This document shows, piece by piece, positions 11,423 to 56,053 of a stretch of DNA of 64,000 nucleotides. A program made the translations under genes and the position numbers. The first letter of the stretch is position 1. The number at the start of each line of letters is the position of its first letter. The stretch is from Symmachiella dynata (GTDB lineage: Bacteria > Planctomycetota > Planctomycetia > Planctomycetales > Planctomycetaceae), in assembly GCF_007747995.1 (NCBI RefSeq), contig NZ_CP036276.1:936001-1000000 (forward strand). The letters run 5' to 3'. A model generated the notes under the pieces. That model did not search any database. It saw only the letters and a list, made by a program, of their open reading frames with translations, and was not told the DNA's origin.

Positions 11423-12778
11423 GTGAACGAAATTGGCGTCCGGTTGCAGGAAAGCTGCGGACGAGCCTCATTGATTGTGGGTCAAGCTATGATGGCTGAA
11501 ACTAGCCCCCGTGTTGTAATCACGGGTGTGGGTGTTGTTTCACCGGTCGGTATCGGAAACGATGCGTTCTGGCGCAATCTCTCTTCCGGTCGATCGGGTA
11601 TCGATTTCATGGAAGCTTTTGTCCGTTCCGATTTGCCGTGCAAATTCGCTGCCGAGGTGCAGGACTTTGACGCGATGGGCTATTTGCGGCAACGGAAAAT
11701 GCTCAAAGTGATGTCCCGCGACATACAGCTGGGCGTCTCCTCAGCCAATCTGGCGATGGAAGATGCCGGTCTCAGCCGCGGCGATGTCGACCCCGACCGC
11801 CTGGGTGTCGAGTTCGGCGCTGGCCGGATCTCCTCCACACCCCAAGAATTGGCCCAAGCAGCCAGCGACTGTGCCGACGCTCAAGAAGCCTTTGAATACA
11901 CGCGGTGGGGCGAAGGCAGCATGGGCAAGATTGCCCCGTTGTGGCTGCTCAAACAACTGCCGAACATGCCCGCTTGTCATGTCTCGATCGAGTTCGATGC
12001 ACGCGGCCCCAACAACACAATCACCAGCCGCGATGCCTCAGCATTGTTGGCATTGGCCGAAGCGACACGCACGATTCAACGCGGCGCCGCCGACGCCATG
12101 ATCGTCGGAGCGTGCAGCTCCAACGTCGATCCTGTCGATATTGCCCGGATGAATTTGATGGACAGTTTGTCGCACAACGGCGAAGATCCTAAGCGAGCCT
12201 GCCGGCCGTTCGACATGAATCGTGACGGCAGTATTGTGGGCGAGGGAGCCGCTACTTTTGTTGTCGAGCTCTACGAACATGCCGTTGCCCGCGGTGCCGA
12301 TATTTACGCCGAAGTCATTGGCTTGGGCGCCGGTTGCGACGGCACCGGCTATGCCAACGGAGCCGGCGGAACGGGACTGGTGCGAGCCATCCAAAAAGCA
12401 CTGCAACAGGCGCAGTTGCGACCCGATGAATTAGGCCACATCAACGCCCATGGCAAAAGCACGCAGCGGGACGACTTGGTCGAAGCACGAGCCTATCACC
12501 GTTCGATGGGGACCGCTGCTGAACGGGTTCCGGTGACAGCGATGAAGAGCTATTTCGGCAATTTCGATGCCGGTTCAGGAGCCGTCGAATTGGCCGGCAC
12601 CGTGCTGGCCTTGCGACATCAGCAAATCCCGATGACGCTCAACTACGAAACGCCCGATCCGAACTGCCGCCTCAATGTGATTCACGGCAGCCCGATGCGA
12701 TCCCGCAGTTCAGCCGCGATGACCGTCAACCGCACCGACGTCGGCCAATGCGCCGCCGCCGTACTGCGTGCCGTCTAA
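11423..12778 (+). CDS. Beta-ketoacyl-ACP synthase homologue with altered catalytic triad
   Basis: The 451-residue thiolase-fold protein is a full KAS I/II-type ketosynthase in length and order (VVITGVGVVSPVG near residue 30, GACSSN, RPFDMNRDGSIVGEGAA, INAHGKST). Aligned with FabF (Cys163, His303, His340), the nucleophile falls on Asp204 (ITSRDASALL), the first His is kept (His343), and the second is Asn380 (KSYFGNFDAG). The spacings (139 and 37) match FabF, so the alignment is solid. Without Cys it should not form the acyl-enzyme, so a non-condensing role such as chain-length-factor-like partner or other acyl chemistry is inferred. A GTG start with AGGGG at 11423 is used; an ATG at 11489 would remove 22 residues. 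No acpP or fab neighbours. Confidence 0.82.
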   Translation: MNEIGVRLQESCGRASLIVGQAMMAETSPRVVITGVGVVSPVGIGNDAFWRNLSSGRSGIDFMEAFVRSDLPCKFAAEVQDFDAMGYLRQRKMLKVMSRDIQLGVSSANLAMEDAGLSRGDVDPDRLGVEFGAGRISSTPQELAQAASDCADAQEAFEYTRWGEGSMGKIAPLWLLKQLPNMPACHVSIEFDARGPNNTITSRDASALLALAEATRTIQRGAADAMIVGACSSNVDPVDIARMNLMDSLSHNGEDPKRACRPFDMNRDGSIVGEGAATFVVELYEHAVARGADIYAEVIGLGAGCDGTGYANGAGGTGLVRAIQKALQQAQLRPDELGHINAHGKSTQRDDLVEARAYHRSMGTAAERVPVTAMKSYFGNFDAGSGAVELAGTVLALRHQQIPMTLNYETPDPNCRLNVIHGSPMRSRSSAAMTVNRTDVGQCAAAVLRAV

Positions 12779-12833
12779 CGGCGATCCCATCGACCTCTGA
12801 TCGGGTTGCCACTGCTGGCTTGTCCGGTAAAGC

Positions 12834-12908
12834 GTAGGTCATGCTGTGCATGACGAATCTCGAACGATTCACGCTCTCCCAAACTACGTCATGCACAGCA
12901 TGACCTAC
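12834..12908. repeat. GTAG-headed palindromic doublet (REP/BIME-like), copy 1
   Basis: Two exactly inverted 22-nt arms at 12834-12855 and 12887-12908. Each arm starts with GTAG followed by its own stem-loop GTCATGC-TGT-GCATGAC. The pair sits between the convergent ketosynthase and redoxin genes. The identical arm occurs again as a doublet at 50275-50350. Confidence 0.85.
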
Positions 12909-12958
12909 TGGTTCGTTTGGCGATCAGTGTCAGACCGTCGGTGGCTGGTGGTAAACGA

Positions 12959-13603
12959 TCACTTCGTCTTCCTCCGACGGCGGGCGCGACTCTTGCGTTC
13001 GTAGCGTACGCCGCAACCGATGGCGACGGTTTCTTCCGTTTCTGGTTTCTTGCCGGCTAGTGCCGCTTGGACCGCCAATTCGACGTAGTTTTTCGTCACC
13101 TTTTTGGGGTCGGTGGAATCGTCCATCGCTCCCATGTAGATGATCTTCCGCTGTTTATCGAGCACGAAGAATTCCGGGGTGCGGGTCGCGCCGAACTCGC
13201 GGCCGATTTTTTGCGATGCGTCGAACAGATAGGCGAAGGGAAACTTTTTTTCTTTAGCCCGCTCCTTCATCGCCGGTAGCAGATCCGCTTCTTCGCGGGT
13301 GTTCACGCTCAAGGCGACGACGGCGATTTTGGATTTCTCGCCGGCGTGTTTCTTGGCGAACTCGATGATGCGGTCTTCATACTCAACCGCATAGGGACAA
13401 GTATTGCAGGTCACCACCACGACGATGGCCTCTTTGTCCTTCAAGTCGGCGAGTGAATGTGTATTGCCGTCGGTCCCGGGCAGATCTTTCCAGACCGGGG
13501 CAGGGTCACCAATGTTGCGTTCCGGATTGTACTTGCCCGCCGATGTGGTTTCCGCTGTAACCAAGACAACCAAGGTCGCGACAATCAAAATCCAACTTCG
13601 CAT
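12959..13603 (-). CDS. Secreted thioredoxin-fold redoxin (AhpC/TSA-like)
   Basis: The 214-residue product has a signal peptide (LIVATLVVLVTAETTSAG), a peroxiredoxin/TlpA-like domain with the motif TCNTCPY (CxxC), a conserved cis-Pro segment (RTPEFFVLD) and a strongly basic C-terminal tail. It should be a periplasmic thiol-disulfide protein; this planctomycete-type family is often annotated as thioredoxin family. AAGGGA about 7 nt before the ATG supports the start. It is monocistronic and its partner is unknown. Confidence 0.82.
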   Translation of the reverse strand: MRSWILIVATLVVLVTAETTSAGKYNPERNIGDPAPVWKDLPGTDGNTHSLADLKDKEAIVVVVTCNTCPYAVEYEDRIIEFAKKHAGEKSKIAVVALSVNTREEADLLPAMKERAKEKKFPFAYLFDASQKIGREFGATRTPEFFVLDKQRKIIYMGAMDDSTDPKKVTKNYVELAVQAALAGKKPETEETVAIGCGVRYERKSRARRRRKTK

Positions 13604-14971: not shown

Positions 14972-15077
14972 GGGTGCCACTGGCGGCTTGTCCGCCAGTG
15001 CCGTACCAGGCTGAGTTTTCCTTGTCCAGGGACGTCGTTCCACGTGCGCACTGGCGGGCAAGCCGCCAGTGGCACCC
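14972..15077. repeat. GGGTGCCACTGG hairpin doublet (family C)
   Basis: Two inverted 30-nt arms, 14972-15001 and 15048-15077, matching at 29 of 30 positions. Each arm contains its own stem CACTGGCGG/CCGCCAGTG. The doublet follows the transaldolase stop and could fold either as two small hairpins or one long one. Confidence 0.8.
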
Positions 15078-22006: not shown

Positions 22007-23290
22007 ATGCCGCACTCCGTAAAAAGCATCGAAACCATCTGGGTTGATCTGCCTATAAGGCCGGTGCCGGCGCGGAACATGGTCCGGGAGATCCCGCACT
22101 GGACCTTGTTCGAGATCTGCATTGTCACGCTCGATTGCGGCATCGTCGGCTTCGGCGAGACGATGGTCTATTACACGTGGGGCGAAAGCACCGTCACCGA
22201 TGCGGCCAAGAATCAGGTGATTGGCAAGCACCCGGCGGAAAACATGTGGGACGACTCACTCGGCGCCGGCTTGCAAATCGCCCTGTTCGACGCCGCCGCC
22301 AAGGTCCTCGATGCGCCGCTGCATCAAATGCTTGGGCGGCAAGTCCGCGATGGCTGCCATCTCTCTTGGTGGGACATCGACCTGCCCGCTGCGGATTGGA
22401 TCAGCGAATGTGAATTGGCGATTTCCCAAGGGTACACCGCCTTCAAGTCCAAGGGCCGCCCCTGGTGGGACCTCATCGAACAAACGCGACAACTGTGCGC
22501 CACTCTGCCCGATTATTTCGAAGTCGACATGGATTTCAACGGGTTCGGCATCGATGCGGCGCATTGCACGCGATTGCTGAAGGAAATGGAACAGTTTCAC
22601 CACGTGGTGATGTTCGAAAGCCCGTTGCCGCATCATGACGTTGCCGGGTATAAGCATTTGCGACAACACACACATGTGCCGCTGTCGATGCATACGCAAA
22701 CACACATCGGCGACCCGTCGCTGGAAGTTGCGATTCGCGAAGAGATGGTCGATGGATTTGTGCTGTGCGGCGGGGCGACAAAAATCCAGCGTGAGGCCCA
22801 TTTGTGCGGCCAGTTCAACAAGTCGTTTTTCCTGCAAGTCGTCGGCACGAAAATCGCCGCCGCCTTCGGTTTGCATCTGGGAGCCGTCTTGGAAAATGCC
22901 CGTTGGCCGGCGGTCAATTGTCATCAGCTTTTCGAACGTGATTGCGTTCAACAATCCATTCCTGTTTCCAACGGTCTGGCAACCGTTCCGAACGAGCCGG
23001 GCTTGGGGATCGATTTGGACGAAGAAGCCATCGAGTTATTCCGCACCGAGCCCCAGGACAAACCGTACCCGCATCCCGAGTTATTGATCGCCATTCGCTG
23101 GCCGGCGGGGACCACGACGTATTACGCGCATACCGCTCAGTTCTGGGAGGACTGGCATGCCGGGCGACTGCCGTTTTTCCCGCGCGGGGTCAACCTGGAG
23201 CACATCGCGAACGACGGCACGGCCTCATGGAAGGACCTACGCAGCCGCGCACTGGCCGGAGCGGTCCATAGCCAATCCCCACCGTTTTGA
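22007..23290 (+). CDS. Enolase-superfamily protein (mandelate racemase/muconate lactonising-like)
   Basis: The 427-residue protein has the capping domain then a (beta/alpha)7-barrel with a KxK motif (FKSKGRPW, about 154-158), first metal ligand in EVDMDFNG and second in MFESPLP. At the third-ligand strand, where most members have Asp or Glu, it reads LSMHTQTHIGD, so metal binding is altered or another residue serves. The likely reaction is sugar-acid dehydration or epimerisation, inferred from the symporter just upstream. Length is slightly above family average because of a C-terminal extension (RWPAGTTTYY onwards). The palindromic doublet at 23316-23399 follows the stop. Confidence 0.78.
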   Translation: MPHSVKSIETIWVDLPIRPVPARNMVREIPHWTLFEICIVTLDCGIVGFGETMVYYTWGESTVTDAAKNQVIGKHPAENMWDDSLGAGLQIALFDAAAKVLDAPLHQMLGRQVRDGCHLSWWDIDLPAADWISECELAISQGYTAFKSKGRPWWDLIEQTRQLCATLPDYFEVDMDFNGFGIDAAHCTRLLKEMEQFHHVVMFESPLPHHDVAGYKHLRQHTHVPLSMHTQTHIGDPSLEVAIREEMVDGFVLCGGATKIQREAHLCGQFNKSFFLQVVGTKIAAAFGLHLGAVLENARWPAVNCHQLFERDCVQQSIPVSNGLATVPNEPGLGIDLDEEAIELFRTEPQDKPYPHPELLIAIRWPAGTTTYYAHTAQFWEDWHAGRLPFFPRGVNLEHIANDGTASWKDLRSRALAGAVHSQSPPF

Positions 23291-23315: not shown

Positions 23316-23399
23316 GTAGGGCAGGCTCCCGCCTGCCGCCATGCTCATTTGGACATTGCAAGCCAAAGGTGATTCACGGCAGGCGGGAGCCTGCCCTAC
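23316..23399. repeat. GTAG-headed palindromic doublet (REP/BIME-like), second sequence type
   Basis: Exact inverted 23-nt arms at 23316-23338 and 23377-23399; each begins GTAG and contains GGCAGGC-TCCC-GCCTGCC. It lies between two convergent genes, ending 4 nt before the stop of the next gene, and follows the architecture of the 12834-12908 doublet with a different stem sequence. Confidence 0.85.
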
Positions 23400-23403
23400 A
23401 TGA

Positions 23404-25137
23404 CTAGGCGTTGCCGAGCCAGCGCGGCAGTAGATTGAGGTGGGCAAAGAGAGGCGTTTCGCCCGCTTCGGTATGCGCTGTTTCTGCCGATCCAAGACGG
23501 TCTTTCTCCGGGATCGTCGCGAATAGCGACAACTCGACATCGGCAATCGTGACCGGCGTGGGCTGATACATGCGGAACACCAAACGAAATCGCTCAGCCG
23601 GTTCAGCGACATAAGCCCACAGTCCATGCTCGACGGATTGTTCGGTCAGTTGAATCTGTCCCAGTTCTTGGATTTCCGGCCGTTTGTTCTTTCCGTGCCA
23701 ACAATACAAGTCGCAACCGAGTTTTGCATTTTCGTCGGCTTGGCCGTGAAATTTCAGTTGCAGGAAATGCTGCCCCGGCAGCGACCCCGATTTGGGTGCG
23801 CTATTGCGATACCCTGCGCCTGTGTAAAACACAACTTGTTCGCTGACGGTAATCACTGGACCGTCGGACAACGGCTTGACCCGGTTCGATTCCGGATCCA
23901 CATAACTCCAACCGGTTGCCAATCGGCCCGTGCTGGCGATGGGCGGCATGACGATTCCCACAATCCGCTCGCTGGCCTGCTCCTCGATTCCCGGATCGGT
24001 GTAGGGTGTCCAGGTTCCCGGCCAGACGTCGGGATACTGTTTAGCGGCTGCAATGAAATGGGGCGGAGCAACTTCCGCATGTTCGCTGTGCAGCGAGAGC
24101 GTCGTCGGCTGCGAGACTTCCGGCAACGGCACGCGGTCCTTCCACAGTTGGAAATCAAAATCGTCCGCGCGGTCATCGGGCAGGGGGATCAGAGTGAATA
24201 GCGACGGCGAAGGAAACCCTTCCACCGAGGGCAGGAACAGTTCTCCCTGATAGGCCTTGGTCTGGCGGTCAAAAAATGCGAGCCGCGGCGGAATCTGCGG
24301 TTGTTTCGATGTCTCATTCCGCCATTGTGTGACGCCGCACACGATGTGCTTTTCCGTGACATGAATGCCGCGGACCCATTGAAAACTGTTTTCCCAGGTG
24401 GGCTGTTGGATCGTCACCGGCAAGACATGGTCCGGGCTGCGGCCTGTCATTTGCATGTCGCCGACGTTGTCGTAAATCAACACTTCGCTGTTGCCGGTGG
24501 CGGAGATATAAAAATCTCCTTCGTGGACGAATCCGTCGTGCGGAAAATTCAAACCTTCCAACACGACTTCGCCCGTGTCGAAGCAGATGACTTTTCCCGT
24601 CCGCGTGCCATTCCAGTTTCCGCACGTTAAATAGATGCGGCCGTTGTGTTCGGTAATATGATTGCAGTGAACCAGATCGGTTGCGGCGGGATTTCGCTCC
24701 AGGGCGGTTTCGGCGACAGCGGGGGAGATGTCCCACAAATAATGGTGTTTGACAAAGTCTCCCTCGGGCGTGAGTTCGTCGATCGCATCCATATAGGAAT
24801 TCGCGATGAACAGTTTGCCACGGTCCTTGCTGAAGTGCAGATGGTGCAAATCGGCAGCTGCCCGCGCGCCGATTTCCCACTCCGGTCGCCGCACCGTCCG
24901 CTCCAATTCGTAGCGGACTTGTCCGGCCGTGGTGTTCACACGATAAAGGTAAAGCGCCGCCGAGCTCAAGACGTACAGCAAGTCATCGACCAGCAGTGCG
25001 CCACGGAATCCGCGTCGCTTGAACGGTTCGGCGATATCTGTGATCTCAAAATGTTCCCAACTCGCTGTCAGCGGATCGAGAATACCGATCGCCGCTTGGT
25101 TGCTGGGGCGAGAATCAACTGCCAGAAGCAATCTCAT
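23404..25137 (-). CDS. Beta-propeller-like protein of unknown function
   Basis: The 577-residue protein lacks a signal peptide. Its first about 330 residues read as repeated strands with sequences such as LLVDDLLYVLSS, HCNHITEHNGRIYLTCGNW and HDGFVHEGDFYISATGNSEVLIYD, as in WD40/NHL-like propellers that carry His and Asn at blade ends. Residues 400-560 form a separate beta-rich domain. No catalytic motif is recognised. It is convergent with the enolase-superfamily gene and upstream of a long gene-free region. It may bind a saccharide or organic ligand, but that is a guess. Confidence 0.6.
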   Translation of the reverse strand: MRLLLAVDSRPSNQAAIGILDPLTASWEHFEITDIAEPFKRRGFRGALLVDDLLYVLSSAALYLYRVNTTAGQVRYELERTVRRPEWEIGARAAADLHHLHFSKDRGKLFIANSYMDAIDELTPEGDFVKHHYLWDISPAVAETALERNPAATDLVHCNHITEHNGRIYLTCGNWNGTRTGKVICFDTGEVVLEGLNFPHDGFVHEGDFYISATGNSEVLIYDNVGDMQMTGRSPDHVLPVTIQQPTWENSFQWVRGIHVTEKHIVCGVTQWRNETSKQPQIPPRLAFFDRQTKAYQGELFLPSVEGFPSPSLFTLIPLPDDRADDFDFQLWKDRVPLPEVSQPTTLSLHSEHAEVAPPHFIAAAKQYPDVWPGTWTPYTDPGIEEQASERIVGIVMPPIASTGRLATGWSYVDPESNRVKPLSDGPVITVSEQVVFYTGAGYRNSAPKSGSLPGQHFLQLKFHGQADENAKLGCDLYCWHGKNKRPEIQELGQIQLTEQSVEHGLWAYVAEPAERFRLVFRMYQPTPVTIADVELSLFATIPEKDRLGSAETAHTEAGETPLFAHLNLLPRWLGNA

Positions 25138-48204: not shown

Positions 48205-48415
48205 AATTGGGGATCTGCGAGGGACTTGCTGAGCGCGTCTTGGTGGACATTTGCATCGGCGTTGCTTAGTGTAGCTATCCGAACCCGCGTATTAGCGGAT
48301 GCCCGCGAGAATCAGTGACACCGACGATTCTCAGCTTGGCAACGCAAACGTGACGTCCCGCGCTCCAATTCGGATTTGCTCTGCCCTAGAATCTTCAGTC
48401 GAACATTTCTCGCCG

Positions 48416-50272
48416 ATGCACATGGATGCCAACACTGCCGCTCCTGAGGATGTCCTCAAGCAATACTGGGGCTACGACGACTTTCGCCCGCTACAGCGCG
48501 AGGCGATCGACTGTGTGCTTGCCGGGCGGGATTCGGTGGTTGTGTTGCCGACCGGCGGCGGAAAATCGCTCTGTTTTCAAATTCCCGCGATGTGCATGCC
48601 TGGTATGGCGGTCGTGGTTTCGCCGCTCATCTCGCTGATGAAGGACCAAGTCGACGCGCTGCGTTCCAACGGCGTCCCGGCTGCTTGCGTGAACAGTTCG
48701 CTCTCCTATCAGGAGCGTATTCAGGTCTCCGAAGAAATTCGCAGCGGGCAGTTGAAGCTGCTGTATGCGGCGCCGGAACGGTTGTTGATGGAAAACACGA
48801 TCGAATTCCTGCAGGAGTCCAACGTCTCGTTCGTCGCCATCGACGAAGCGCATTGTGTGAGCGAATGGGGACACGACTTTCGGCCGGACTACCGTCAATT
48901 ACGGACACTCAAACGGGCCTTTCCCAATATCGGCATCCATACCTATACCGCGACGGCGACCGAAATCGTCCGCGAGGATATTGCCAAACAACTCGATTTG
49001 CATGAGCCGGAGGTCCACATTGGATCGTTTGACCGCCCGAATCTGATTTATAAAATCGAACGCCGATCGGGCGGGATCAAACAGATTCAGGAAGTCATCG
49101 ACCGGCATCCCGGCGAGTCGGGGATTGTGTATTGCATCAGCCGCCGCAAGGTGGATGAAACAACGTCGGAGCTCAACGAGTTGGGTTACCGCGCCTTGCC
49201 CTATCATGCAGGGATGCCCGATACGCAGCGAAAAGACAATCAGGATGCGTTCATCAACGAACGCTGCGACATCATCGTGGCGACGGTCGCCTTTGGTATG
49301 GGAATCGACAAGTCGAATGTCCGCTATGTGATTCATTCGCAACTTCCCAAATCGCTGGAAGCGTATCAACAGGAAAGTGGCCGCGCCGGGCGGGATGGCT
49401 TGGAGGCGGAGTGTTGTCTGTTTTATTCCACTGGCGATTTCAACACGTGGTCGCGGTTGCTCAATCAGTCGGGGGACCTCAAAGCGCGAGACGTGTCGAT
49501 TGATTCGCTGGGGATGATGCTCGATTTCTGCACCGGTGTCACGTGTCGACACCGCGCAATCGTGGAACACTTTGGGCAAAAGCTAGCTGTGGATTCCTGC
49601 AATGCGTGCGACGTCTGTATGGGGGACATTGAACTGGTCGACGACGCGCTGGTCATCGGTCAAAAAATCCTCTCCTGTGTGATTCGCCTCGAACAACGTT
49701 TCGGCGGCGAATATACCGCGGGCGTGTTAAAAGGTTCGCAGGAGCGTCGCTTGCTCGACAACGGGCACGATCAATTGAGCACCTATGGTTTACTCGCCGA
49801 GGAATCGCAGCGAACGATTCGTGACTGGATCGAGCAGTTGGTTTCGCAGGGGTATTTATCGCGTTACGGCGAATTCAACCAATTGCAGGTGAGTGAAAAT
49901 GGGCGGCAAGTGTTGCGGGGCGAAGTGACCCCTCGATTGAGCAAGCCGCTCAAGAAGGCTAAAAAATCCAGGTCCGAATCCAAGTCCAAAGTCGCCGAGG
50001 AATCTTGGGAAGGCGTCGATCGCGGACTGTTCGATGTCCTGCGGACCATTCGCAAGGCGATCGCTGAAGAAAAAGAGGTCCCCGCCTACGTCGTCTTCGG
50101 TGACGCCGCCCTGCGCGACATGGCGCTGCGCCGCCCGACCACACTGGAAGGATTTCTAGACGTCCGCGGCGTCGGCGAAAAGAAGTGCAAGGACTACGGC
50201 GAGGAATTCGTCGGCGCGATCAGCGCGTATTGCCGAGAACACGATGTGACTGCGGATGTTGATGTGGATTAG
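48416..50272 (+). CDS. recQ: ATP-dependent DNA helicase RecQ
   Basis: Starting near ATG 48416 (48422 also possible), the 618-residue protein has motif I PTGGGKS, motif II DEAH within FVAIDEAHCVSEWGHDFRPDY, motif VI QESGRAGRDG, the RQC zinc-binding cysteines (CRHRAIVEHFGQ, CNACDVC), and a C-terminal HRDC domain (VFGDAALRDMALRRPTTLEG). It unwinds recombination and replication intermediates. The open frame reaches 48299, but the extra 39 residues lack homology. Its stop lies 2 nt before the palindromic doublet at 50275. Confidence 0.95.
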   Translation: MHMDANTAAPEDVLKQYWGYDDFRPLQREAIDCVLAGRDSVVVLPTGGGKSLCFQIPAMCMPGMAVVVSPLISLMKDQVDALRSNGVPAACVNSSLSYQERIQVSEEIRSGQLKLLYAAPERLLMENTIEFLQESNVSFVAIDEAHCVSEWGHDFRPDYRQLRTLKRAFPNIGIHTYTATATEIVREDIAKQLDLHEPEVHIGSFDRPNLIYKIERRSGGIKQIQEVIDRHPGESGIVYCISRRKVDETTSELNELGYRALPYHAGMPDTQRKDNQDAFINERCDIIVATVAFGMGIDKSNVRYVIHSQLPKSLEAYQQESGRAGRDGLEAECCLFYSTGDFNTWSRLLNQSGDLKARDVSIDSLGMMLDFCTGVTCRHRAIVEHFGQKLAVDSCNACDVCMGDIELVDDALVIGQKILSCVIRLEQRFGGEYTAGVLKGSQERRLLDNGHDQLSTYGLLAEESQRTIRDWIEQLVSQGYLSRYGEFNQLQVSENGRQVLRGEVTPRLSKPLKKAKKSRSESKSKVAEESWEGVDRGLFDVLRTIRKAIAEEKEVPAYVVFGDAALRDMALRRPTTLEGFLDVRGVGEKKCKDYGEEFVGAISAYCREHDVTADVDVD

Positions 50273-50274
50273 GT

Positions 50275-50350
50275 GTAGGTCATGCTGTGCATGACGATGC
50301 TTATGAACCTTCAACATGGCGCGAGGTTCGTCATGCACAGCATGACCTAC
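50275..50350. repeat. GTAG-headed palindromic doublet, copy 2
   Basis: Arms 50275-50296 and 50329-50350 are identical in sequence to those at 12834-12908, again inverted and between convergent genes. Only the 32-nt spacer differs. The stop codon of the following minus-strand gene (TAG at 50347-50349) is supplied by the GTAG head of the right arm. Confidence 0.9.
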
Positions 50351-51633
50351 GCGGTCGTGGAGACGTCCAACGCCGCTGCTTCATGCACGAGCTTCAGCGC
50401 TTGATCCAACAACTCGGCGGCGCGGCGTTGATTGTCGGGGACTTCGGCTGCCTGTTCGCCGGGGGTGATTTGTTCCAGCGAGGTGGCCAAGCACATTGAT
50501 GCGGCGGCCAGCAATTCGGGGAAGTATTCCGCTCCGACCTCGCCGCTTTCACCGTTGTCGGTGTCGAGTGCGTGGCGGACTTCGACTAACTTGCTTGAGG
50601 CAGCGAATTCATCGTCATTCGACTGCGCTGCAGGAATGGCGGTGGACAACGATTCCAGCGGTTGTGCGTTGCGGGCTTGTCGGGCGTCGTCGATGATCGC
50701 TTGGTCTTGTTGTTCTTTATCGCGGAACGGTTTCTTTTTGCCGCTGCTAAAGAGGCCTTGGATTTTCTGGAATGATGAGTTGTCCCGCAGTTTGTTAAAC
50801 CGTTTGGCCAGTTGTTTGAAGTTGGCGTTGAACAACTTGGGCATTGCCACCGGCAGCACCATGAATCGTTTTTGTGTTTGATAGGGCATGTCTGTCTGTT
50901 CCTCGACCACATGCGCCAACATGGCTGCCGTCCGCGCCAGTAAGAACAAACCGGTACCATGCTGTGGTTGGAAACCGAGCGAAAGCAAAATCGCGCCGGT
51001 GATGCCGTCGACATTGGGCGGAACTCCTTTTTGTTCCGACATGCAACCAACGACACCGTCGTAGACGTCCAGGTAAGGGCCTTCGGCTTCCAGTTCGCAC
51101 AACACTCGCCGCACGTGCGTTGGCCGGGGGTCTTTGCGCAACAGCGGATGTCCGTAGCCGGGCACGGTTTCACCCCGCTCGATCATACCGAGGACATGTA
51201 TGCGCGCAAATTCGACCAACGCGCCTGCTTTGGCTGGTGTCTCACCCTGTTGCTCGCGGTAAGCGGTCAGGATGTCGCGATACAACGTCATCGCATGTTC
51301 GACGGCTCCCACGTGATACGGTCCGCTGGCCAAGTAGCCCGCGGCCAGCGCTTGCGCAGTGGAAACACCTGTTCCGGCGACCAGTCGCGGGACTAGCGTT
51401 GTGGGGGGCAACAGTCCGAATCCGCCATGAAAGGCGACCAAGACCAGGTCGAACATTTGCCGTTCTTTTTCTGAGGGCAATTGTCCGTGCAGAATGTGAA
51501 ACAGCGCATCGGTATAGGTGTATTTGCCCAGCAGGTCGTTCAGGTTGTGAGAATGCACGAGCAATTGCTCGGCAGACATGTGCACGCCGTCGATCTGGGT
51601 GCCGAGATACGGATACGGAAACGACCGCGCCAT
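50347..51633 (-). CDS. Citrate-synthase-family protein (citryl-CoA lyase-like)
   Basis: From the ATG at 51633 the 428-residue product has citrate-synthase large-domain segments: YTDALFHILHGQLPS, VEHAMTLYRDILT, PGYGHPLLRKDPRP with the catalytic His, and HGTGLFLLARTAAMLAHVVEEQ near residue 290. A C-terminal extension of about 120 residues (from residue 310) is hydrophilic and not part of the usual fold. It may be citryl-CoA lyase or a divergent citrate or methylcitrate synthase; sequence alone does not decide. An open frame up to 51738 crosses a repeat and was excluded. Confidence 0.8.
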   Translation of the reverse strand: MARSFPYPYLGTQIDGVHMSAEQLLVHSHNLNDLLGKYTYTDALFHILHGQLPSEKERQMFDLVLVAFHGGFGLLPPTTLVPRLVAGTGVSTAQALAAGYLASGPYHVGAVEHAMTLYRDILTAYREQQGETPAKAGALVEFARIHVLGMIERGETVPGYGHPLLRKDPRPTHVRRVLCELEAEGPYLDVYDGVVGCMSEQKGVPPNVDGITGAILLSLGFQPQHGTGLFLLARTAAMLAHVVEEQTDMPYQTQKRFMVLPVAMPKLFNANFKQLAKRFNKLRDNSSFQKIQGLFSSGKKKPFRDKEQQDQAIIDDARQARNAQPLESLSTAIPAAQSNDDEFAASSKLVEVRHALDTDNGESGEVGAEYFPELLAAASMCLATSLEQITPGEQAAEVPDNQRRAAELLDQALKLVHEAAALDVSTTA

Positions 51634-51673
51634 GAACTGCGTCTCCCAGTGCAATGTCACACTCAAAAAATCA

Positions 51674-51751
51674 GGGTGCCACTGGCTCCGCCAGTGCTTT
51701 GAAGACATTTTCAGAAAGTTTGAATGCGCACGGACCAAGCCCGTGGCACAC
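51674..51751. repeat. GGGTGCCACTGG family doublet, decayed
   Basis: The left arm (51674-51697) has CACTGGC-TCC-GCCAGTG. The right arm near 51729-51750 has CACGG...CCGTG followed by GCAC, a diverged inverted partner. It lies between the redoxin gene stop (51818) and the citrate-synthase-like start. Confidence 0.55.
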
Positions 51752-53822: not shown

Positions 53823-53844
53823 GTAGGGTGCGTCGCAACGCAGC
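53823..53844 (+). repeat. Single GTAG-headed hairpin
   Basis: GTAGGG followed by TGCGT-CGCA-ACGCA, a short stem-loop in the same style as the doublets at 12834, 23316 and 50275 but unpaired. It lies upstream of the redoxin start. Confidence 0.5.
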
Positions 53845-53915
53845 TTTCTGCGCAGAACTAACGCCCCCCACGAGTTCACCACTGTATAAGCCTTCCGCCC
53901 AAAGTGACACACCTG

Positions 53916-55616: not shown

Positions 55617-56053
55617 AAGAGGGGCGAATCGCGTAGCAGGCTAGAGCAGGGTGGGATGGTATGAAAAACGTATCCCGACCGCGTGTGCCGGGAAACGGGG
55701 CGGGATCGTACTGCAAAGTTCATCACGACACAATACGATCCCACACCGCGACGCGCAGCACGCGCCATGCATCTCAGAACGCCTTTGCTGAAGGCTTGAG
55801 GCGTGAGGTGACAGGCTTGAGGGGGCGGGGTGTAGGGTGGCTTGGGTGTTGTGACTGGATGGAACACCAACGAATCCATCTCAAAAGAAGATCTCATCCC
55901 ACCATCCCTCAAGCCTGTCGCCTCAAGCCTCACCCCTCAAAACGTCCCCGCGATTGGCGCTTCCCCTACCGAGCAGGTATAAAACTGAGAGACCACCGCC
56001 CCGTGCCGTGGCTCATCTTGATTCTCCCCCTCCTGTCCCCTTGAGGTTGCACC
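55617..56053. other. 437-bp gap with dyads and heptamer repeats
   Basis: It holds an inverted GGGATCGTA/TACGATCCC pair (55702-55710, 55734-55742) and two opposed heptamer runs (55793-55824 and 55907-55944). No gene is seen. Confidence 0.55.
55793..55944. repeat. Opposed heptamer-iterated runs
   Basis: The left run (55793-55824, reversed) and right run (55907-55944, CCTCAAG/CCTGTCG/CCTCAAG/CCTCACC) are imperfect inverted copies about 82 nt apart, so they could form a large hairpin upstream of the PQQ propeller gene. Confidence 0.7.

Follow-up and report, generated by a model that had tools for sequence, protein, structure and literature searches.

The three inverted doublets at 12834-12908, 23316-23399 and 50275-50350 of the window (the whole 64,000-nt stretch of DNA analyzed, bases 936001-1000000 of the 7.77-Mb, one-contig Symmachiella dynata genome, G000) are, with a probability of roughly 0.93, REPINs copied by a genome-encoded RAYT, with spacer inversion, most likely through template switching, superimposed on them. 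A REPIN would here be two GTAG-headed REPs in inverted, head-outward arrangement that are copied as one unit (about 75 bp in class 1, defined below). A Y1 tyrosine transposase (RAYT, also TnpA-REP) would recognize the GTAG foot and the hairpin on single-stranded DNA; this recognition, the cleavage and the copying are assumed from published RAYT work. In a second process, spacers would invert in place between the arms, most likely by template switching during replication and not by the RAYT. REPINs and RAYTs were reportedly treated together by Bertels and Rainey in 2011 (PMC3116915). REPIN/RAYT systems are familiar elements that have been described before in Planctomycetes (PMC3733652), and the spacer flips are the only part of our observations that may be new.

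A sequence-only reading of the window had described the three exact doublets and a single hairpin at 53823-53844, and all four were confirmed in the sequence. It had ascribed one design to them; GTAG hairpin doublets are indeed common to the three, but the doublets divide into two families and the hairpin belongs to a third one of different build. Class 1 comprises the 12834 and 50275 doublets, whose 22-nt arms are identical. The former consists of the arm GTAGGTCATGCTGTGCATGACG on the plus strand (12834..12855; GTAG head, 7-bp stem, 3-nt loop), a 31-nt spacer (12856..12886) and the inverted partner on the minus strand (12887..12908); the latter has its plus-strand arm at 50275..50296, 2 nt past the stop of a gene for a RecQ-type helicase, a 32-nt spacer at 50297..50328 and the minus-strand partner at 50329..50350. 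Class 2 is represented by the 23316 doublet with 23-nt arms, namely GTAGGGCAGGCTCCCGCCTGCCG on the plus strand (23316..23338; 7-bp stem, 4-nt loop), a 38-nt spacer (23339..23376) and its minus-strand partner (23377..23399). The GTAG (GT[AG]G) head and palindrome of GTAG REPs are present in all three doublets, and a window scan for GTAG-headed hairpins with a 7-bp stem returned only these six arms. According to script gene calls, the flanking genes converge at 12834 (11423-12778 on the plus strand, 12959-13603 on the minus strand), at 23316 (22007-23290 and 23404-25137) and at 50275 (48299-50272 and 50347-51738). The product of 50347-51738 has a citrate synthase C-terminal domain, and the GTAG of the adjoining arm gives this gene its TAG stop codon, as had been noticed from the letters alone.

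Genome-wide, 75 class-1 arms (46 of them exact), 98 class-2 arms and 184 class-3 matches were found at up to 3 mismatches, and the reversed pattern of each class gave 0; the class-2 count takes in a stem variant with two substitutions, and some class-3 matches were counted on both strands owing to the palindromic core. With these numbers and the seven RAYTs described below, the prospect of only a few copies and no RAYT gene, raised in the sequence-only reading, falls away. When all 75 class-1 arms were taken in, with up to 4 mismatches per arm and spacings of 22-100 allowed, 27 doublets were obtained, and their arms lay 52-54 nt apart start-to-start in 27 of 27 (53 in 23, 52 in two and 54 in two). 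In 23 hand-picked class-2 doublets the spacing was 52-53 in 12, and the others ranged from 33 to 68. By rough gene calls, 47 of 49 class-1 sites lie outside called genes. At 315527-315551 of G000 (L022), a class-1 doublet is reduced to one 25-nt palindrome, GTAGGTCATGCACAGCATGACCTAC, which is not present in the same-genus genome G102.

The class-3 hairpin of the window (GTAGGGTGCGTCGCAACGCAGC, 53823..53844, plus strand) is single, and its 22 nt fold no better than shuffled sequences (z -0.95). Together with its tail it occupies 53823-53875, the hairpin (GTAGGGTGCGTCGCGACGCACC) being followed by the conserved sequence TTTCTAYGYAGGACGA, which resembles the tails of other class-3 copies; a conserved tail 3' of the hairpin is common to 19 copies from 13 sampled stretches. 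Neither of two further marks of a GTAG REP or REPIN was found for class 3: none of these 19 copies has an inverted partner arm, and no class-3 arm lies in the scanned flanks of the seven RAYTs. A REP similar to class 3 flanks a RAYT in another genome (G034, L114).

The expectation that a RAYT would be encoded in the genome though not in the window was borne out. Seven RAYTs of G000 scored above the cut-off of the NCBIfam model REP_Tyr_transpos (NF047646), none of them inside the window. The class-1 RAYT (167460-168029) sits between two class-1 doublets, 20 nt downstream of one (167366-167440) and 3 nt ahead of the other (168032-168106). It scores 177 bits on NF047646 against a cut-off of 80 and matches E. 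coli TnpA-REP (PDB 4ER8) at E 1e-33, with the HUH, WQPR.WEH and YI..NPVKH motifs aligned; the roles of these motifs are in part those given in PMC6006769. The HUH and Tyr motifs and the family profile thus mark it as a RAYT/TnpA-REP. A search with Pfam Y1_Tnp (PF01797) omitted this gene, at 20.7 bits against a cut-off of 23; it was found through homology to the class-2 RAYT and then again with NF047646. The class-2 RAYT (4660140-4660712) has class-2 REPs on both sides, so that classes 1 and 2 each have a cognate RAYT with its own REP alongside, in support of the REP/RAYT reading.

RAYTs at 551163, 2438010 and 3180745 bear GT[AG]G REPs of other sequence, and one of the seven has no REP nearby in our scan. 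The RAYT-family gene 1894025-1894492 (L178) carries a 28-nt terminal inverted repeat (GTTGTGCGCGGGTCTCCCGACCCCGCAC) with no REPs in the scan, resembling the transposases flanked by such repeats in PMC3733652. The RAYT at 3180814 was considered as the class-1 RAYT and rejected, since a class-1 doublet lies about 1 kb off but another REP (GTGGCCCCGAAAG...CTTTCGGGGC) flanks it; many of its relatives have their own flanking GT[AG]G REPs, and its nearness to the class-1 doublet is taken as coincidence. In relatives, REP stems are shared within well-supported RAYT clades: GTAGGGCCGGTT(C/T)C(C/T)ACCGGCCG flanks L098, L099, L101 and L103 (support 100/99), and GTAGGGTCCGCTGTGCGGACC flanks L106, L108 and L118 (support 100/96). 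At two or three of the 30 loci scanned, those at the weak end (L112, L115, L116), no such flanking REP was found.

The 12834 and 50275 doublets had been credited with identical arms and different spacers. The arms are identical; the spacers, however, are diverged members of one family, and that of 12834 fits the family in its minus-strand reading. When both orientations are admitted, a relative scoring beyond the 95% level of shuffled spacers exists for 26 of 27 spacers in class 1 and for 19 of 23 in class 2, with a mean pairwise identity between paralogs of 55% and 48%, respectively. Because 26 of the 27 class-1 spacers are related, the class-1 doublet appears to be copied whole, as an inverted pair with heads outward, which is the mark of a REPIN. 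We infer that, in the lineage that does the copying, the middle of the copied unit drifts while its arms remain alike.

Six of 150 genomes in the order contain class 1 at up to 1 mismatch, with 68 arms in G000, 26 in G102 and 15 in G051, all of the same genus, and 8, 2 and 1 in the other genomes G130, G117 and G126. A scan of named genomes, which may omit records close to that of the window, found exact class-1 doublets in a Planctomycetales MAG (IP29b_bin.173) and in Rhodopirellula sp. SM50; because these are planctomycete genomes, the host looks planctomycete-like, not proteobacterial. The evidence for class-1 mobility consists of presence/absence differences between species. In the compared G102 stretches, 19 of 49 class-1 sites have both flanks, with arms in 12 and none in 7, a ratio biased to presence by eleven stretches that were chosen for having arms; the empty sites are not clean, as extra bases adjoining the doublet are also gone. 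The 12834 doublet is present in G102 with its spacer unflipped. The 23316 doublet, of which G102 keeps only a stub, looks like a deletion there rather than a new insertion in G000.

At the class-1 RAYT locus, G051 retains a class-1 REP stub, GTAGGTCATGCTG, and a RAYT stub of 24 residues, and G102 retains only the REP stub GTAGGTTAGGCTG. Neither G102 nor G051 (both about 96% complete) showed a RAYT with class-1 arms beside it in the loci scanned, which in G051 leave aside a partial match at C31:95376. Because of the stubs in both species, we read this locus as an ancestral class-1 REPtron that would have been lost twice. The place of the 50275 doublet in G102 is taken by 739 bp with a SUKH/SMI1-KNR4-family gene (L145 11926-12414) and another REP. 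In G051, a gene of RAYT length between two class-1 doublets (L117 2114-2623) was examined as a further candidate; tblastn showed no RAYT and the gene is SUKH-like. The SUKH/SMI1-KNR4-family genes near REPs at L117 and L145 are possibly REP-flanked cargo.

We further compared spacer orientation between G000 and G102, whose flanks are about 92% identical. In 2 of 8 orthologous class-1 doublets the spacer is inverted and the flanks are not. Across classes 1 and 2, 15 doublets with both flanks matched were resolved, 11 forward and 4 inverted; the inverted spacers are those at G000 2483042 (L037/L134), 2804410 (L038/L133), 5302325 (L225/L206) and, weakly, 5816685 (L228/L204), where a 12-nt spacer matches at 9 of 12 positions and without which the fraction is 3/14. 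These came from 54 doublets, of which 33 had no two-flank match (stretch outside the set or gap above 500 bp), 5 were ambiguous or absent, and one (534549) was excluded for having no arms between its flanks in G102. Only one flank was matched for 948834 in this comparison, and adding the unflipped one-flank doublets 108135, 1985134 and 3641434 gives 4/18. As a control, non-REP inverted repeats with 10-13-nt arms were forward in 31 of 31 resolvable cases and inverted in 0 (35 of 79 repeats had an ortholog stretch, and 2 of the 35 were absent), and for 4/15 against 0/31 the hypergeometric probability, one-sided, comes to about 0.008. Control repeats with 14-nt arms gave 1 forward and 1 inverted case. 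The inverted one, the non-REP repeat at 55810-55919 of the window with an 82-nt spacer, aligns only slightly better when inverted (428.8 against 421.0).

A tentative explanation, to which we give a little less than even odds, is that REPINs act as hot spots where spacers invert in place by polymerase template switching, independent of the RAYT. The long, near-identical arms would make DNA polymerase switch templates, so that the spacer inverts in place and roughly a quarter of the doublets have spacers in opposite orientation once flanks diverge by 8%. Template switching between inverted repeats is described as inverting the spacer or loop between the arms with the flanks unchanged, as here, and in yeast it was seen only with arms longer than 9 bp (PMC8604942, PMC8794818). 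The yeast cases involve spacers with 2-5 substitutions, whereas the inverted segments in these bacteria are entire spacers, about 30 nt long and enclosed by 22-nt REP arms. As a cause of arm identity, template switching was considered and set aside, as no variant common to both arms was seen by eye in 27 doublets.

Alternatively, the RAYT itself may invert spacers, by excising the REPIN and reinserting it reversed or by strand transfer between the arms. Both arms are RAYT substrates by kinship, and flips occurred in both of the families for which G000 encodes a RAYT. However, G102 showed no RAYT flanked by arms of class 1 or class 2, though the flips could date to the G000 lineage, and the non-REP repeat at 55810 is also better inverted, by its small margin. 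The lack of a cognate RAYT in G102 and the 55810 case, neither of which is proof, favor RAYT-independent flips, and we consider inversion by the RAYT unlikely. Independent REPIN insertions at the same place in two species would give the same picture under a strong target preference, but this is highly improbable, as the strong inverted spacers match their orthologs at 29/31, 29/31 and 28/32 positions, as closely as six unflipped class-1 spacers do (169/187 summed) and far above the identity between paralogs.

Flipped queries for three tail-tail BIMEs of E. coli revealed no flip at 3 of 3 loci, a limited negative as the two arms at these loci are unlike each other. The rows were ordered by letters covered times identity, such that a flipped strain should come first; the top-ranked rows have matches of 92.5%, 92.1% and 90.7%, and an unflipped K-12 MG1655 record is among the equal-best rows at the second and third loci. 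A literature search covering few subscription journals turned up no paper describing inverted spacers or template switching in REPs, and the sections of PMC3733652 consulted hold no mention of spacer inversion. If the flips hold in other clades, they would provide a simple natural readout of bacterial template switching at inverted repeats, and REPIN spacer comparisons would have to allow both orientations. If REPINs are indeed inversion hot spots, their orientation would be uninformative about lineage, and some of the "unrelated" spacers of other REP families may be flipped relatives.

The doublets might instead be immobile bidirectional intrinsic terminators or mRNA-stabilizing hairpins selected between convergent genes. 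Folded as RNA, every doublet forms a single long hairpin (-41 to -60 kcal/mol, z -8.8 to -10.6), and placement is skewed in the direction that such a role predicts: class-1 sites fall in convergent gaps more often than expected (16 sites against an expectation of 7.8, p=0.003) and in divergent gaps less often (1 against 7.6, p=0.005), with expectations taken from gene gaps in the window and in twenty G102 stretches, mostly chosen near REP sites. The location at convergent gene ends, noted earlier for all three window doublets, is nevertheless not the rule, the enrichment being about two-fold: the 49 class-1 sites comprise 16 convergent, 30 tandem and 1 divergent site and 2 within genes, according to a rough gene caller, which overlooked the class-1 RAYT and probably further unusual genes. 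A T-run (at least 6 T in 8 bases) follows only 1 of 75 outward-facing ends, so that class-1 doublets lack the T-run after the hairpin that defines intrinsic terminators, and none of three terminator-like sites in 12600-13100 is the 12834 doublet. The same arm sequence recurs everywhere and flanks its own transposase. In eight orthologous class-1 doublets of G000 and G102, the arms (335/352 identical) diverge almost as fast as the flanks (3655/3978; p=0.03); judged from these alignments, there seems to be little that keeps single class-1 copies from decaying, and this speaks against the idea that every one of them is a necessary terminator. We therefore regard the terminator reading, including the suggestion that the arms are unrelated terminators, as very improbable beside RAYT-copied REPINs, although single copies may have a secondary RNA role.

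The system closely resembles the GTAG REPs of Di Nocera et al. 2013 (PMC3733652). The shared features are a GTAG head with a hairpin and head-head dimers, location between convergent or unidirectional genes with the repeat supplying a TAG stop, and spacers similar in length and differing in sequence. That paper also describes several families per planctomycete genome, R. baltica included, repeat-specific REPtrons, and consensus sequences of 24 families, one or other of which classes 1-3 may equal. As with the REPINs and RAYTs of PMC8049555, an inverted REP pair would be copied as a whole by its RAYT, with single REPs as decaying remnants and the RAYT single-copy and vertically inherited; unlike there, the host belongs to another phylum and there are three families, one of them with no partner arm or RAYT found. 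In pseudomonads and stenotrophomonads, according to Nunvar 2013 (PMC3686654), REP classes likewise outlast a RAYT that is kept in related strains, whereas here the corresponding locus of one sister species (G051) still has a RAYT stub. Our data thus offer a clean REP/RAYT case outside Proteobacteria, with three families and two cognate RAYTs in one genome, and the one RAYT locus whose decay can be traced in sister species while its REPs persist bears on how REPs survive without a transposase.

A further inverted repeat lies at 14972-15077 of the window, with 30-nt arms (GGGTGCCACTGGCGGCTTGTCC...) and a 46-nt spacer. Its motif recurs near G000 562700 and 855167, and it probably represents another repeat family.
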